From assembly GCF_001275135.1 (NCBI RefSeq), contig NZ_LFQU01000001.1:1-64000 (forward strand): a stretch of DNA of 64,000 nucleotides. The letters are read 5' to 3'. This DNA is from Xylanibacter rarus (GTDB taxonomy: Bacteria; Bacteroidota; Bacteroidia; Bacteroidales; Bacteroidaceae). Within the stretch, counting starts at the first letter, position 1; every line of letters starts with the position of its first letter. Below the pieces are notes generated by a model. It did not search any database. It was not told the DNA's origin and saw only the letters and a list, made by a program, of their open reading frames with translations. The translations under genes and the position numbers were made by a program. Positions 57,073 through 64,000 of this stretch are shown here, one piece after another.

Positions 57073-57080
57073 TATTTTTG
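57073..57080 (+). promoter_or_regulatory. Promoter (-7 box) of the AmmeMemoRadiSam genes
   Basis: TATTTTTG is an exact match at the end of repeat R2. It rules out the TTG at 57078 as start codon, because transcription would begin near 57087. Confidence 0.5.
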
Positions 57081-57143
57081 CGATATAAGAATAATTTATT
57101 CACAACACCCTTGAAAGCAAAACTGTTAATTATACTGATTATT

Positions 57144-58625
57144 ATGGCAACACACATTTCTCAGTCATGCTCACGCAGTGCAGACGATATACGTAAGCCG
57201 GCCGTTGCCGGGCAGTTTTATTCAGCCTCGGCAGACACGCTTGCCAATGATGTCGACGGCTTTCTGAAGTCAGCCGGAGTAAGTCATGCCGACGACGTGC
57301 GCGCCGTCATCGTGCCCCATGCAGGCTATGTCTTTTCGGGAGCTATGGCGGCAAAGGCATATATGCGCATAAATCCGGCAAGAGAATATAAGCGGGTGTT
57401 CCTGTTGGGACCGAGCCATAAGGCAGCCTTCGACGGCGCTTCGGTCGACAACCAGTTCGGCGCTTATGCCACGCCGCTTGGCAACGTGGAGATAGACATC
57501 AACGTGTGCAATGATCTGTTGTGTGCCGACAGCGTGTTCTGCTGTCTGCCCAAGGCACACGACGGCGAGCACTGCCTTGAGGTGCAGTTGCCTTTTCTGC
57601 AGCGCCATATGGACAAGATGCCGCCCATAGTGCCAATAATAATAGGTACGCAGGATCTTGACAAACTGCAGCGCGTGGCCAAGGCCCTGCAGCCATACTT
57701 CACCGCCGACAACCTGTTTGTCATAAGCAGCGACTTCTCTCATTATCCACGTTATGACGATGCCGTTGAGGTGGACGGCATAACAGGGCAAGCCATAGAG
57801 AAGGCCTCGCTGACAGAGTTTGTAGGTGCGATTAACGACAACGCCTCGCGCAACATTTCCAACCTCTACACAAGTGCCTGCGGACAGTCGCCCATAGCCG
57901 TGCTGCTCATGATGATGAGTGATGGAGGCGGCCTGACCATGGAGCATCTGGGATATTGCAACTCGGGCGACTCACCTTACGGCGACCACGACGGCGTGGT
58001 GGGCTATCACGCCTTTGCCGTTACGGGCGGAAAAGCCGAAGGTGGCGGAGCAGAAAAGGATGCGGCGTTCGGTCTTACGGCAGACGAGATGCGTACCTTG
58101 CTCGGCATTGCGCGCCGGACAATAGAGAATACGCTTAACGGAAACGGCGGACAGCCGTGCGACACAACCAAACTAAGTGAAACGCTGAAGGCACGCTGCG
58201 GAGCCTTCGTAACGCTGACGTCAGGCGGCCGTCTGCGCGGATGCATAGGCAATCTTGTAGGTTACAGGCCGCTGTATGTCACGGTTGAGGAGATGGCTAA
58301 GTCGGCAGCTTTTGAAGATCCGCGCTTTTATCCCGTGCGCAAGGATGAGCTTAATGACATTAAGATAGAGATATCCGTGCTGTCGCCGCTGCGCCGCATA
58401 TCGTCGATAGACGAGTTTCAGCTCGGCCGCCACGGTCTGTATATTGTCAAGGGTGCCAGCTCGGGCACGTTCCTGCCGCAGGTGGCAGATGAGACTGACT
58501 GGACTAAGGAAGAGTTCTTCGGCCACTGCTCGCGCGACAAGGCCGGACTTGGCTGGGACGGATGGCGCGATGCCGAGCTGTATGTTTATGAAGCCGAAGT
58601 GTTCGGCGAGGCCGGCGGCGAATAA
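57144..58625 (+). CDS. AmmeMemoRadiSam system protein, MEMO1-AMMECR1 fusion
   Basis: 493 aa from the ATG. The N-terminal half is the Memo (AmmeMemoRadiSam B) domain: IRKPAVAGQFYSAS, AVIVPHAGYVFSGAMAAKAY, VFLLGPSHKAAFDGASV, EHCLEVQLPFLQ, VISSDFSHYPRYDDA. The C-terminal half (about 320-493) is AMMECR1 (A): CGAFVTLTSGGRLRGCIGN, PRFYPVRKDELNDIKIEISVLSPL, HGLYIVKG, FLPQVA. A TTG at 57111 in frame would add KAKLLIILII before MATHISQSC and so create a lipoprotein-type signal peptide; start and location are therefore unsettled. The radical SAM partner starts 11 nt downstream. The biochemical function of this system is not established to my knowledge. Confidence 0.9.
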   Translation: MATHISQSCSRSADDIRKPAVAGQFYSASADTLANDVDGFLKSAGVSHADDVRAVIVPHAGYVFSGAMAAKAYMRINPAREYKRVFLLGPSHKAAFDGASVDNQFGAYATPLGNVEIDINVCNDLLCADSVFCCLPKAHDGEHCLEVQLPFLQRHMDKMPPIVPIIIGTQDLDKLQRVAKALQPYFTADNLFVISSDFSHYPRYDDAVEVDGITGQAIEKASLTEFVGAINDNASRNISNLYTSACGQSPIAVLLMMMSDGGGLTMEHLGYCNSGDSPYGDHDGVVGYHAFAVTGGKAEGGGAEKDAAFGLTADEMRTLLGIARRTIENTLNGNGGQPCDTTKLSETLKARCGAFVTLTSGGRLRGCIGNLVGYRPLYVTVEEMAKSAAFEDPRFYPVRKDELNDIKIEISVLSPLRRISSIDEFQLGRHGLYIVKGASSGTFLPQVADETDWTKEEFFGHCSRDKAGLGWDGWRDAELYVYEAEVFGEAGGE

Positions 58626-58636
58626 ATATTAAGGAT

Positions 58637-59695
58637 ATGGAGCACGAAGCAGAATTTTATGAAGCCGCTGAAGGCGGCAGGGTGGTGTGCCGCCTGTGCC
58701 CTCATGGTTGCCGTCTGGCAGAGGGCGAGCGGGGAAAGTGCCGCAGCAGGGTATGCCGCGGCGGGCGTCTCGTGGCAGAAAACTACGGTCGTGTGTGCGC
58801 ATTGCAGATAGACCCGGTGGAGAAGAAGCCGCTGCTGCATTTTCATCCCGGCGGCAGCTGTCTGTCGCTGGCTGCGGCGGGCTGCAACCTTTCGTGCCTT
58901 AACTGCCAGAACTGGGACATATCGCAGGCGTCGACGGCCGACGTGCCTTACAGACAGCTTGGTGCTGCCGACGTGGCGCGGCTGGCTGAAACGAACGGAT
59001 GCCGTATGGTGGCATATACTTACACCGAGCCGCTGACATGGCTAGAGTACACGCGCGACTGTGCCGTGGCGTGCCGTGAGCGCGGACTGAAGAACATACT
59101 GGTTACGGCAGGCTATGTCAACGCATGTCCGCTGGCAGGTCTGCTGCCGTATATCGACGCCGCCAACGTAGACCTCAAGTCGTTCTCCGACGACATCTAC
59201 CGCTCTGTCAGCGGTGTGCGGCTTGCCCCTGTCCTGCATACGCTCAAAAGTATGCTCGATGCCGGCGTGTGGATAGAGATAACCAACCTCTTGATACCCG
59301 GCGTCAACGATGACATGGACATGATAGCCCGTATGTGCCGCTGGCTTGTCGACAACGGCTTTGCCGACTGTCCGCTCCATTTCAGCCGTTTTTTCCCGCA
59401 GTATAAGATGCAGGGTCCCATGTCGGTGCTTGCCGTTACGCCCATGGGCGTTAAGGATGCAGGCGCGAGCTTTGTGCCGACGCCCTTGCCGCTACTCGTT
59501 GAAGCACGCCGTGTGGCCATAAGTCAGGGCATGCGCCATGTCTATCTCGGCAATGTCTCGCTTCCCGGAGCCGAAGACACCCTTTGCCCCCGTTGCGGCT
59601 CTGTCCTCATACGCCGCACAGGCTATGACGTAGATCTTGGCAACTTCAGCGGCGTCTGCCCTAAGTGCGGCAGCAAGATTGCCGGTGTGTGGTGA
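58637..59695 (+). CDS. AmmeMemoRadiSam system radical SAM enzyme
   Basis: 352 aa, cytoplasmic. Radical SAM cluster C83-x3-C87-x2-C90 (CNLSCLNC) preceded by a cysteine-rich N-terminus (CRLCPHGC, residues 18-25, and C35, C40). The core holds TYTEPLTWLEYTRDCA, NILVTAGYVNACPL and IDAANVDLKSFSDDIY. The C-terminus has a zinc-ribbon pair CPRCGS...CPKCGS. It resembles pyruvate-formate-lyase activating enzymes, but PFL is not nearby; the fusion gene just upstream assigns it to the AmmeMemoRadiSam trio, whose target is unknown. Confidence 0.93.
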   Translation: MEHEAEFYEAAEGGRVVCRLCPHGCRLAEGERGKCRSRVCRGGRLVAENYGRVCALQIDPVEKKPLLHFHPGGSCLSLAAAGCNLSCLNCQNWDISQASTADVPYRQLGAADVARLAETNGCRMVAYTYTEPLTWLEYTRDCAVACRERGLKNILVTAGYVNACPLAGLLPYIDAANVDLKSFSDDIYRSVSGVRLAPVLHTLKSMLDAGVWIEITNLLIPGVNDDMDMIARMCRWLVDNGFADCPLHFSRFFPQYKMQGPMSVLAVTPMGVKDAGASFVPTPLPLLVEARRVAISQGMRHVYLGNVSLPGAEDTLCPRCGSVLIRRTGYDVDLGNFSGVCPKCGSKIAGVW

Positions 59696-59825
59696 TGCAT
59701 CAGCATTAGTTTGCGTAAAGGGCAGAATAAGAGTTAAAAGAAATAAAACAAGATGCATAGGTGTATGAAAACAATATAGGAAAAAAGAAAAAATATGATA
59801 TTTATATTGAATTAAAAATATAAAT

Positions 59826-61034
59826 ATGATATCTGTTAAACTTAAATTCAGACCTTCTGTAAACATAGACAAAGAAGGCTCATTGGTGTTTCAGCTTATT
59901 CACGGACGTTTAGTCCGCAGAATAACCAGCAAGTACAAGATTTTCAGCAGCGAATGGGACGAACGCAACGGTTGCATCATTCTCCCCATGAAGTCATCGC
60001 CGCGCTATGAGCAGCTAAGTCTTATCCGCTTTAATGTGGAATGGGAACTGCGGCGGATAAACAGCATCATCCGGGACACTGTCGTTGACGGCAGTCAGTT
60101 GTGCGTTGACGATGTCATCAGCCGGTTTTTGCTTTGTGATGATATTAAGCAAAGCGTGTTTAACTTTATCCGTACCCAGATTATGCATAAACAGAAGCTG
60201 GGCAAGATACGTTCAAGCGAGACCTATAAGTCGACGTTAAACAGCTTCATGCACTTCAGGAAAGGTGTCGACCTGCCTTTTAACATGATTGATTCAGAGC
60301 TGCTTGAACTTTATGAGGCGCAGATGAGATACCGCGGCTTGTCGCGCAACACGACATCGTTCTACATGAGAATTCTGCGCACCAACTATAAGATGGCGGT
60401 AGAGAAAGGCCTGACTAAAGACTGCCACCCGTTCAGGCATGTCTATTGCGGCATGGACAAGACCATAAAGCGGAGCATATCCTTTGTTGAGATTAAGAGG
60501 ATAAAGGACCTCGATCTGTCGAGAAAACCCATTTGGGACTATGCCCGCGACATGTTCATCTTCAGCTTTTGCACCAGGGGCATGTCTTTTGTAGACATGG
60601 CATACCTGAAGAAGAAAGACCTGCGCAACGGCTATCTTACTTACCGTCGTAAGAAAACGGGACAGCTGCTCATAATAGAGTGGACACGCCAGATGCAGGA
60701 TATCCTTGATAAGTATGAGCCTAACAAGACAAAATATCTGCTGCCGATAATAATGCGTGAAGACGGAAAAGAGCGGCAGCAATACCTTAATCAGATGATG
60801 AGAATAAACAGACATCTGAAGGAGATTGCCGGCTTGGCCAATCTGTCAGTGCCATTGTCTTTATATTACAGCCGTCACAGCTGGGCAACCATAGCACGCG
60901 GCAAGGACATCCCCCTGGCTGTGATAAGCGAAGGGCTGGGGCACGAGTCGGAAGCTACCACCCAGATATATTTAGATTCGATTAAATCTTATGAGGTGGA
61001 TGAGGCAAACAGGAAAATATTAAACGGTCTCTAA
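59826..61034 (+). CDS. Tyrosine site-specific recombinase
   Basis: 402 aa. N-terminal arm-binding-like part (1-95), SAM-like core-binding domain (about 105-205: TYKSTLNSFMHFRKGVDLPFNMI) and catalytic domain with R251 (CTRGMSF), K276/K277 (YRRKKTGQ), R350-H351 (YYSRHSWAT; the first box-II His is Tyr, as is common in Bacteroidetes integrases), H373 (GLGHES) and nucleophile Y382 (TQIYLDS). It reads toward, and lies 240 nt from, perfect inverted repeats around a promoter. Such recombinases at the start of Bacteroides capsule loci invert promoter segments, which is the likely role here rather than element integration. Confidence 0.92.
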   Translation: MISVKLKFRPSVNIDKEGSLVFQLIHGRLVRRITSKYKIFSSEWDERNGCIILPMKSSPRYEQLSLIRFNVEWELRRINSIIRDTVVDGSQLCVDDVISRFLLCDDIKQSVFNFIRTQIMHKQKLGKIRSSETYKSTLNSFMHFRKGVDLPFNMIDSELLELYEAQMRYRGLSRNTTSFYMRILRTNYKMAVEKGLTKDCHPFRHVYCGMDKTIKRSISFVEIKRIKDLDLSRKPIWDYARDMFIFSFCTRGMSFVDMAYLKKKDLRNGYLTYRRKKTGQLLIIEWTRQMQDILDKYEPNKTKYLLPIIMREDGKERQQYLNQMMRINRHLKEIAGLANLSVPLSLYYSRHSWATIARGKDIPLAVISEGLGHESEATTQIYLDSIKSYEVDEANRKILNGL

Positions 61035-61274
61035 AACTTATTAAACATTGTGGAGGGACATTGGTGTATGTCCGTGCTGTTTGTGCTTAAGGCAAAAGCA
61101 GCATCGCCTAATAAGCATCATTGTCCGAAAATAAAGTTAATTCTTCGATTTATAAACCTCACCATATTTTACACTTTTCAGTAAAGTAACAGACGCAAAT
61201 ACTATTCTTAAAGTCATTCGTTTTTTTGAATGATGTAATCCAAAAAAGACTTGATTCGTTTCACGAAAAAGACC

Positions 61275-61464
61275 ATCTCCTAATAAGAGACGGTCTTTTG
61301 TATGCAAAGGTACAAAAAATAATTACTTATGCAATTATTTTAACAATTTTATTAGATTATTTCACCGCAAACGTTTATTTGCTGATTTTTTCTTTACAAA
61401 TAAAATGTTTGAAAGCCCGTAAATAAAAATGTTTCACGTAAATGACCGTCTCTTATTAGGAGAT
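61275..61464. promoter_or_regulatory. Putative invertible promoter segment (OFF orientation)
   Basis: Inverted repeats at 61275-61295 and 61444-61464 are identical over 21 nt (core TCTCCTAATAAGAGACGGTC). The 148-nt interior is AT-rich and includes a consensus promoter on the minus strand. The left repeat together with outer GACC forms GACC-TCTC...GAGA-GGTC, followed on the minus strand by TTTTT: a terminator 3 nt from the expected start site. Outside the right repeat the flanks (TAAGC) do not complete the hairpin and no T-run follows. The adjoining recombinase and UpxY gene fit a phase switch. Confidence 0.75.
61305..61334 (-). promoter_or_regulatory. Promoter within the invertible segment
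   Basis: Minus strand: TTG (61334-61332), 19 nt, TACCTTTG (61312-61305); full consensus. It points away from upxY now. After inversion the -7 box would lie at about 61427-61434 on the plus strand, 230 nt before upxY. No other -7 match is seen between 61465 and 61666. Confidence 0.8.
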
Positions 61465-61666
61465 AAGCAAAAATAACTAGGTGATAAATAAGCTTTACAC
61501 TGATAAAGTCATTTAAAAAAGCGTTTTAATAATGCTTGACGAGAATGAGAGAAGTCTAGATACAAAAACTTATAACTGCTTGTTATACTGCAATTTACGT
61601 TAACTCGCAGGACTAGAAGGTATGCCTTTAAGGCATTAATATATTATAACCAACACATTGCTGACT

Positions 61667-62230
61667 ATGACTAAAGAAGAGCAAATTATAGCTTTTTCTA
61701 GGAGTGACGCGCCCCAATGGTTCGTTATGCGCGACCTGAAGCGAAACAATGCCAAGCTTCCTGCGTATAAGATGCTTAGCGAGATGAAAATCGAGATATT
61801 CACTCCTATGAAGTGGAAAATTGTGACCAAAGAGAAAAAACGCATCCCCCAGAAAGTTCCTTTTATGCAAGACTTGCTGTTCGTGCATGTCACCAGAAAA
61901 ATTCTTGATCCTATCGTCGAGAGAACCAGTACACTGCAATACCGCTACTTGCGCGACGGATTTAGAACTCCCATGACGGTAAGGGACACGGATATGGAGC
62001 GTTTTATACGTGCAGTTGAATCTGCGGACAATCCGCAGTTTTATGCTCCAAAGGATATCCTTCCTAGTATGATAGGCAAAACTGTGCGCATCATCGGCGG
62101 TCCTCTGAACGACTATGTAGGAAAACTCCAGAAGATGCAAGGCTCAAAAGTGAAGCGCATCTTTATTGAATTGTCTAACCTCTTGACTGCATCTATTGAA
62201 GTGCAGCCTGAATATATACAGATATTATAA
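61667..62230 (+). CDS. UpxY-type NusG-like transcription antiterminator
   Basis: 187 aa from ATG 61667; the TTG three codons earlier is less likely. NusG N-terminal-like domain: APQWFVMRDLKRNNAKLPAYKMLSEMKIEIFTPMKW at residues about 12-48, then PFMQDLLFVHVTRKILDPIV and a KOW-like C-terminal part (MIGKTVRIIGGPLNDYVGKLQKMQGSKVKRIFIEL). UpxY proteins ride with RNA polymerase to prevent premature termination in their own polysaccharide operon. The leader upstream would be about 225 nt in the ON orientation, and a second structured leader follows the gene. Confidence 0.9.
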   Translation: MTKEEQIIAFSRSDAPQWFVMRDLKRNNAKLPAYKMLSEMKIEIFTPMKWKIVTKEKKRIPQKVPFMQDLLFVHVTRKILDPIVERTSTLQYRYLRDGFRTPMTVRDTDMERFIRAVESADNPQFYAPKDILPSMIGKTVRIIGGPLNDYVGKLQKMQGSKVKRIFIELSNLLTASIEVQPEYIQIL

Positions 62231-62368
62231 GAAATAACGAATCTTTATCTTATGCCATTTTGTTGTTTCTGCTGGCGCCAACAGGCAGAAATTGTTATGA
62301 TGAAACTACTTTCGTAAATCCCATAAAACGAAAATATATAAATACAAAACCCGAGCCGGGCGTTATGG

Positions 62369-62543
62369 TTCAGCCGGTATCTTCGCTTTATATTGAACAG
62401 ACTTTCGTTCGCTCTTTAGCAGCATAGCGTGCTATGTCAAGAAGAAACATACGGAACTCAATAGTAAACAAAAAGACGGCTGAAAGCAGAAATACACAAA
62501 AGAGATAAAACGATATGCAGACCAACGGTCGGTTTGTGCTAAA
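62369..62543 (+). promoter_or_regulatory. Structured leader element, copy B
   Basis: It aligns with 4239-4416 (see there), including 25 identical nt at 62422-62446 and the covarying hairpin GACC-aac-GGTC (62520-62530). It lies between upxY and the flippase gene, ending 21 nt before its ATG. The upstream part (62231-62368) has a TTTCTG...CAGAAA hairpin and no ORF. It could be the site where polymerase pauses and UpxY acts (inference). Confidence 0.6.
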
Positions 62544-62564
62544 TTATTGATGTAAATAAATTAA

Positions 62565-64000
62565 ATGACCACGCAACAGGAAAATACAAAACGGATTGCA
62601 AAGAATACATTGATGCTATATGTCCGCATGCTTTTTGGCATGTTGATATCATTATACACTTCGCGTGTGGTTTTGCAGGCCTTGGGCGTTGAAGACTATG
62701 GCATCTATAATGTCGTAGGCGGTGTGGTTGCTATGTTTTCGATGGTTTCCAGTTCTTTGTCTTCATCTGTCAGCAGATTCCTGACTTTTGAGTTGGGAAA
62801 AGGAGACATGGAAGGTCTCAAAAAAGTTTTTTCCACATCATTAAGTATTCAGCTTGTTTTGTCAGGCATAATAATAATCCTTGCAGAAACAATAGGCCTT
62901 TGGTTCCTGAATACTCACATGACAATTCCCGATAACAGGTTGTATGCTGCCAATTGGGTGTTTCATGCGTCAGTACTTACATTTGTGATAAACCTTTTGA
63001 GTGTTCCGTTCAGTGCATCAATCGTATCTCATGAACGTATGAGTGCGTTTGCCTATATAGGTATACTTGACATAATCCTGCGTCTGCTGATTGTGTTGTT
63101 TATAGCTTATTCCGGGTTAACTTTCGATCGTCTGATTGTATATGCATTGCTTTTAGTGGGAGTGGTTTGCATCATGCAGGCAATTTATTGGAGTTATTGC
63201 ACTCGTAATTTTGAGGAATGTAAATTAAAACTGAGCTTTGATGTCAGCTATTGGAAAGAGATGAGCTCTTTTGCAGGCTGGAATTTCATTGGAGGTACGG
63301 CCAGCTTGTTGAAGGATCAAGGTGTGAATGTATTGTTAAATCTATTTATGGGACCGGTTGTTAATGCTGCGCGTGGAATAGCCAATACCGTGAATAATGT
63401 ATTATCATCATTTGCAAGTAATTTTATGACAGCTCTTAAACCGCAGATTACGAAATCCTATGCAGCAGGCGATTATGACTATATGATTTCACTAGTAGAG
63501 AGAGGTTCAAGATTTTCTTACTATATACTTTTGTTGTTTGCTTTGCCGATGATGTTTGAGACGGAGTTTGTGCTGACTTTGTGGCTTAAACATTATCCAG
63601 AACATACGGTTAATTTCGTGAGGCTTATTCTAATTGTAACAATGTGTGACGTCTTGTCTAATACATTGATTCAATTAAAGGCTGCAACAGGCAAGGTTCG
63701 TAATTATCAGATTGTCGTAGGCGGTATGCTTCTGATGAATTTTCCATTATCATACCTTTGCTTGAAAGTTGGTTTCCCGCCGGAATCAACTTTAATAGTT
63801 GCTTTAATAGTTGCAGTTTCTTGTCTGTTGTTAAGATTATTGTTTTTACGAAGTATTACAGATTTCTCAATGAAACGCTATATATATAATGTATGTGGAA
63901 ATGTTTTATTTGTAACGTTAATATCTATGATATTGCCTTTACTTCTTTATATGCAGATGTCAGATGGTATTGTGCGTTTCTTTTTGATTTGTTTGTTAAC
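62565..64000 (+). CDS. Polysaccharide flippase, Wzx/MATE-like (3' end beyond window)
   Basis: 478 codons are visible, open to the window end. It starts MTTQQENTKRIAKNTLMLYV. Many helices, with the family pattern RMLFGMLISLYTSRVVLQALGVEDYGIYNVVGGVVAMFSMVSSSLSSSVSRFLTFELGKG, then FAGWNFIGGTASLLKDQGVNVLLNLFMGPVVNAARGIANTVN and LKPQITKSYAAGDY. This is the Bacteroidetes branch of lipid-linked oligosaccharide flippases. G+C content is clearly lower than in the 40-60 kb genes, as usual for capsule or O-antigen loci, which are often exchanged. First structural gene of the polysaccharide operon. Confidence 0.9.
   Translation, partial: MTTQQENTKRIAKNTLMLYVRMLFGMLISLYTSRVVLQALGVEDYGIYNVVGGVVAMFSMVSSSLSSSVSRFLTFELGKGDMEGLKKVFSTSLSIQLVLSGIIIILAETIGLWFLNTHMTIPDNRLYAANWVFHASVLTFVINLLSVPFSASIVSHERMSAFAYIGILDIILRLLIVLFIAYSGLTFDRLIVYALLLVGVVCIMQAIYWSYCTRNFEECKLKLSFDVSYWKEMSSFAGWNFIGGTASLLKDQGVNVLLNLFMGPVVNAARGIANTVNNVLSSFASNFMTALKPQITKSYAAGDYDYMISLVERGSRFSYYILLLFALPMMFETEFVLTLWLKHYPEHTVNFVRLILIVTMCDVLSNTLIQLKAATGKVRNYQIVVGGMLLMNFPLSYLCLKVGFPPESTLIVALIVAVSCLLLRLLFLRSITDFSMKRYIYNVCGNVLFVTLISMILPLLLYMQMSDGIVRFFLICLL

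Follow-up and report, generated by a model that had tools for sequence, protein, structure and literature searches.

Organization of the Locus

The window analyzed here spans the first 64,000 nucleotides of contig NZ_LFQU01000001.1 from Xylanibacter rarus. Near its right end, a predicted invertible-promoter switch lies between a tyrosine recombinase gene and upxY. The promoter is called OFF when it faces away from upxY and ON when it reads toward it. The features are as follows.

59826..61034, plus strand: tyrosine recombinase with Phage_int_SAM_5 (PF13102, E 4e-17) and Phage_integrase (PF00589, E 2e-7) domains, the presumed invertase
61258..61274, plus strand: left-outer element, GTTTCACGAAAAAGACC, which combines a half-site extension with the motif conserved on the recombinase side; within it, the A5 run (61266-61270) corresponds to the U5 of the OFF RNA
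61266..61299, minus strand: predicted intrinsic terminator that the OFF promoter would meet, hairpin plus U5 (-21.2 kcal/mol, d +9)
61275..61295, no strand: left arm and left recombination site, with a TCTC-7 nt-GAGA core
61296..61443, no strand: invertible segment of 148 bp between the arms
61305..61335, minus strand: promoter, ATTG-N19-TACCTTTG, facing left and hence OFF as assembled
61431..61443, plus strand: right-inner copy of the left-outer element, GTTTCACGTAAAT, a direct repeat
61444..61464, no strand: right arm, with an outer flank (AAGC) that yields no terminator
61658..62230, plus strand: upxY transcription antiterminator (NF033644, 126.9 bits, cut-off 100)
62565..64000, plus strand: MatE-family (PF01554) multi-span protein, running off the window

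The recombinase gene is intact (402 aa), lies upstream of the switch, and reads towards it, with its stop codon ~240 nt before the left dyad. Linkage of such a tyrosine recombinase to the switch recurs among relatives, and we presume from sequence and position that the enzyme is the invertase of the window switch. The locus is not of the Mpi type, which employs a serine recombinase, as the window has a tyrosine recombinase and its arm lacks CGTTCG. Just before the recombinase, positions 57078-59695 encode a Memo-AMMECR1 fusion (515 aa) and then a radical SAM protein (352 aa). A second recombinase of like type (46%) occurs in the same genome (G000:C49:1028-1870), with no inverton called beside it. 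On the other side of the switch, the upxY reading frame opens at TTG 61658, with an ATG at 61667, and the MatE-family protein beyond it is probably a Wzx-type flippase.

The repeat arms extend over 25 nt with 96% identity (61275-61299 and 61440-61464), of which the inner 21 bp (61275-61295 and 61444-61464) are perfect. No copy with up to 3 mismatches was found beyond these two sites in the 3.79-Mb genome (85 contigs). A search for exact copies of the arm in viral contigs, a search for similar DNA in a phage collection, and an Rfam search of 59700-62700 likewise returned nothing. Between the arms, the minus strand carries TACCTTTG at 61312-61305 and ATTG at 61335-61332, spaced 19 nt apart and 9 nt from the left arm. 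The consensus for Bacteroidales promoters is TAnnTTTG (-7) and TTTG (-33) (PMC7366714). TACCTTTG matches TAnnTTTG exactly and ATTG matches TTTG in three of four positions, so the promoter is of the Bacteroidales type and is enclosed by inverted repeats. Repeat and promoter analysis therefore confirmed the original prediction of 21-bp perfect inverted repeats around a consensus promoter pointing away from upxY, and the UpxY and flippase-like genes downstream support its placement of a promoter switch, with the recombinase adjacent, before a polysaccharide locus.

Relatives of the Switch and Evidence for Inversion

To place the switch in an evolutionary context, relatives of the recombinase were sought in 398 genomes of the genus, of which 51 matched at E<=1e-85, and in 399 genomes of the family, of which at least 121 matched. 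The family-level search contributed 29 new loci and 60 further places, among the matches listed; two genus-level places, in G520 and G405, were left out. Among the matches listed, 164 loci yielded 87 invertons downstream of a recombinase, which became 76 after 11 near-duplicates were dropped. An inverton was called when the repeat had an effective length of at least 13, a promoter score of at least 6 was reached within 30 nt of an arm, no N was present, and 45 nt of flank was available, a rule that 77 of the 164 loci failed. Across relatives, the core site consists of a TCTC half-site, ~7 nt, and GAGA; element alignment and nearest-relative T-run counts used only the 64 of 76 invertons with a regular core. 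The window switch is one of a family of invertible promoters linked to tyrosine recombinases, with 76 nonredundant relatives among the matches listed.

Both orientations are observed between related species within this family. When L235 was compared with L225, L229, L236, L238, and L240, the outer flanks were 95-100% alike and the inner segment aligned at 92-94% as its reverse complement versus 50-52% directly. L182 and L184 gave the same picture, with outer flanks at 94 and 99% and an inner segment that is 95% identical inverted versus 49% direct. Because orthologous loci occur in opposite orientations, inversion in this recombinase-linked family is well supported.

The assemblies offer some further observations. 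In 14 of the 164 loci (L014, L015, L022, L144, L149, L151, L157, L158, L199, L202, L204, L213, L228, and L262), the contig breaks off no more than 200 nt past the recombinase, as expected with assemblers that meet both orientations; as this count has no matched control, we do not treat it as evidence. L014 and L144 look like one contig, and the L204 contig ends inside the recombinase gene. L152 has a run of N within the repeat, as expected if both orientations were met in assembly.

A Terminator-like Dyad at the Left Arm

The dyad at the left arm is extended by GACC (61271-61274) and GGTC (61292-61295) and, in minus-strand RNA, is followed by U5 from the A-run at 61266-61270. This RNA folds into an unbroken stem of 15 bp at -21.2 kcal/mol (z -6.97; 0 of 200 shuffles as good), in which the A61275/C61291 pair becomes G-U. 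The plus-strand RNA of the same arm reaches -14.0 kcal/mol with a mismatch (0 of 200 shuffles as good), and the outward RNA of the right arm reaches -5.6 kcal/mol (11 of 200 shuffles as good). Terminators were scored as d, using a d'Aubenton-Carafa-type formula. The OFF exit scores +9, a value that 0 of 500 dinucleotide shuffles reached; the score of the ON exit is undefined, as there is no T-tract. The larger palindrome and the five T on the minus strand were thus both as described in the original prediction, and its claim that the right repeat forms neither a full hairpin nor a T-run also held.

A stable hairpin followed directly by a U-tract is the form of an intrinsic terminator, and the left arm has it, though a simple scan of 59000-63000 (loop of 3-8, at least 5 T in 8) returned 6 hits and missed this site. 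Counted against termination, the hairpin of the OFF RNA would begin no more than ~6 nt from the 5' end of the transcript.

A Conserved Element on the Recombinase Side

The original prediction overlooked a 33-nt direct repeat, 82% identical, that relates the left-outer flank (61258-61290) to the right-inner flank (61431-61463). Its presence implies that the dyad and the A-run belong to a longer site. In the left-outer flanks of the 64 aligned invertons, a conserved TTTTTGCTAAAC-like element occurs on the recombinase side only, at a constant distance from the core. Counted from the core, the OFF-flank consensus is TTGACATTTTTGCTAAACAAAT, with T fractions of 0.80, 0.83, and 0.69 at positions 9-11 versus 0.34, 0.30, and 0.44 on the ON flank (n = 64). 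A strict form of the motif was found in the left-outer position in 34 of 76 invertons, where shuffling led us to expect 0.2, and in the right-inner position in 8, with none in the left-inner or right-outer positions. The T-tract of the window is part of this element. Comparison across the 76 invertons thereby reveals a conserved element immediately beyond the repeat on the recombinase side, which studies of the repeat alone would miss.

Inversion in the window would bring both copies of the element to the left site, forming a palindrome of approximately -25 kcal/mol, and leave none at the right. The two states would then show an asymmetry between them like that of attP/attB.

The Predicted OFF-Exit Terminator across Relatives

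As a test of generality, we first took 59 UpxY-linked invertons from 110 regions in other genera (L034-L143). These carry other repeat types, and none of the 59 had d>0 at either exit. Within the recombinase-linked set, the OFF exit had d>0 in 5 of 76 invertons (the window, L276, L178, L024, and L197) and the ON exit in none; in paired comparison, the OFF exit scored better 43 times and the ON exit 25 times (p 0.002). Just outside the arm, 40 of 76 invertons had a T-run of at least 4 on the OFF side, compared with 9 of 76 on the ON side (discordant pairs 34 versus 3, p 1e-7). Among the matches listed, the nine nearest scorable relatives (recombinase at least 65% identical) had such runs in eight OFF flanks and no ON flank.

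Other comparisons count against a general terminator. A d>0 OFF terminator is lacking in 71 of the 76 relatives, and the asymmetry weakens under looser rules (20 OFF versus 11 ON with a relaxed terminator rule; 9 versus 3 at d>-20). Mean hairpin energies are alike (-9.1 for OFF, -10.0 for ON, p 0.14). L016 has the same gene order as the window (recombinase, inverton, UpxY, MatE-like gene; recombinase 68% identical), and there the ON-side hairpin is the stronger one (-17.2 versus -11.8).

The closest recombinase relative among the matches listed, L015 (81% over residues 108-402), has a stem C-G pair changed to G-C and retains the U5; no promoter is visible in it before the contig end. Its leftward RNA has A-C where the window has G-U. 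The proposal that this pair forms only in minus-strand RNA is therefore correct for the window fold and does not extend to a conserved trait. The idea of the left repeat as an orientation-dependent terminator met a similar fate: it held as a prediction for the window, where the OFF exit scores and the ON exit does not, and not as a general property of relatives. At the end of its contig (4402-4517), L015 also has a pair of consecutive core sites that point the same way and are spaced ~80 nt apart; they may reflect a switch with several sites or an error of assembly.

Interpretation and Alternatives

The best reading of these sequences is that the left recombination site, here and in a few relatives, doubles as a terminator for the OFF promoter. 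We consider it probable that the window holds an invertible promoter whose left site, joined in this lineage with a T-tract, would also serve as an intrinsic terminator, and the built-in OFF terminator that had been proposed is partly supported by the comparisons above. In the mechanism that we envision, the adjacent tyrosine recombinase would act on the two inverted TCTC-7 nt-GAGA cores and flip the 148 bp between them. In the ON state, the TAnnTTTG promoter would read into upxY and the polysaccharide operon; in the OFF state, as assembled, it would face the 3' end of the recombinase gene. The OFF transcript, an estimated 35-40 nt, would fold as an intrinsic terminator and halt transcription before antisense entry into the recombinase gene ~240 nt away. 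After inversion, the promoter would cross the right arm, where no terminator is predicted to form.

The dyad and T-tract are nonetheless explained first by recombination, because the conserved recombinase-side element includes the T-run and dyad extension is seen on the ON side too; they would be, before anything else, parts of the recombination site, namely the GACC half-site extension and the TTTTTGCTAAAC-like element. At both arms, own flanks extend the stem beyond what swapped flanks give (OFF -8.84 versus -7.37; ON -9.76 versus -7.48), so the dyad belongs above all to the recombination site. It is a serious possibility, which we rate somewhat short of an even chance, that the palindrome and T-run are recombination-site elements only (half-site symmetry plus an accessory element), with an incidental likeness to a terminator and no effect on expression. 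The lengthened stems, the constant spacing of the TTGACATTTTTGCTAAACAAAT consensus from the core across the 64 aligned invertons, and the excess of left-outer motifs (34 of 76 against 0.2) all fit this account. It fares less well when outer flanks are swapped among invertons: with T-rich OFF flanks exchanged, the number of OFF exits with d>0 drops from 5 to 0.95 on average, with at most 4 in any of 60 permutations, which indicates that stem and T-tract match better than two independent elements would. Invertons without the strict motif still show the T-run asymmetry (20 versus 4 of 35, several of which look like degenerate motif copies), and ON exits with d>0 are missing from all 76 invertons.

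The left dyad might instead be the recombinase gene's own plus-strand terminator, shielding upxY from read-through. The plus-strand hairpin is followed by UUUU in the OFF state, and the recombinase stop codon lies ~240 nt upstream. In the plus direction, however, the window scores -18 (OFF) and -55 (ON), an A-run of at least 4 on the OFF flank occurs in only 3 of 76 invertons, and recombinase read-through gives d>0 in 0 of 76 in the OFF state and 1 of 76 in the ON state. As read-through almost never scores, the terminator signal points the way of the OFF promoter, and we find a recombinase terminator very improbable. It is also very unlikely, in our view, that the repeat is a fixed remnant that no longer inverts, leaving the locus locked OFF in this strain. 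The window locus is known in one orientation (OFF), and loci of other species are mostly assembled OFF as well (67 OFF and 20 ON among 87 invertons); against a remnant stand the perfect 21-bp arms, the intact recombinase, and the opposite orientations in relatives. We infer from these features that the segment in the window inverts in this strain.

If the left-site terminator works, it would answer what becomes of an OFF invertible promoter, which in this arrangement is aimed at the gene for its own recombinase. A single site for recombination and termination would tie switch state to recombinase expression, and the commensal that carries it is tractable. A bolder extension, which we regard as rather doubtful, would give the site nearest the recombinase gene a second role in several lineages of one recombinase family. 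There it would have been co-opted as an orientation-dependent intrinsic terminator that silences the OFF promoter after 35-40 nt, shielding the recombinase gene from antisense transcription and coupling switch state to recombinase supply, with the asymmetry of the element also biasing the direction of switching. Each site would carry one copy of the element in the OFF state, and the left site would carry both in the ON state where a right-inner copy exists, as in the window. The substrates for ON-to-OFF and OFF-to-ON inversion would then differ, as attP/attB differ from attL/attR, and switching would be biased in direction.

Comparison with Known Systems

The switch appears to be of a well-known type, and an OFF-state terminator formed by the flipping site itself is its plausible twist. 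In Bacteroides fragilis, Tsr19 (BF2766) flips the promoter that drives an extracellular-polysaccharide locus (PMC4747536, PMC3090145). Both systems have a local tyrosine recombinase upstream, an invertible TAnnTTTG promoter, and polysaccharide genes downstream, and both are mostly OFF. The TCTC-7-GAGA core probably distinguishes the window switch from that of Tsr19. The accessible text on Tsr19 does not mention an OFF-exit terminator, whereas the window has a predicted one.

Orientation-dependent termination has precedents elsewhere. For Clostridioides difficile cwpV, an intrinsic terminator was proposed at the junction of left repeat and inversion, in OFF transcripts only (PMC2784873). The window resembles this case in that a terminator is predicted in OFF transcripts alone (d +9 for OFF, none for ON). 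It differs in the place of the promoter, which the cwpV inverton does not contain, so that switching there is done by the terminator itself; the window promoter lies inside (61305-61335), and termination would be secondary. The E. coli fim system, as recounted in the same paper (PMC2784873), has a phase-variable, orientation-dependent Rho terminator after fimE. Here too, a tyrosine recombinase inverts a promoter and termination is tied to orientation beside a recombinase gene; termination at fimE is Rho-dependent and acts on recombinase mRNA, whereas that predicted in the window is intrinsic and would act on OFF-promoter RNA. A survey of gut invertons reports tyrosine invertase genes oriented beyond the reach of the inverton promoter and leaves terminators to future work (PMC11892184). 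Within the portions of the open literature that we searched, no invertible promoter of the Bacteroidales was described as having an OFF-state terminator.

The UpxY-linked invertons of other genera likewise place an invertible promoter before UpxY, with other repeat sequences. They fall mainly into two repeat classes, a GTTACTTCTTAGGTAACGGA-like (GTTAC-type) class with 34 of 59 members and a CGTTCG-containing class with 23 of 59, the latter of which we take to be Mpi-type PS promoters. T-runs on the OFF versus the ON side number 5 versus 0 of 34 in the GTTAC class and 11 versus 14 of 23 in the CGTTCG class.
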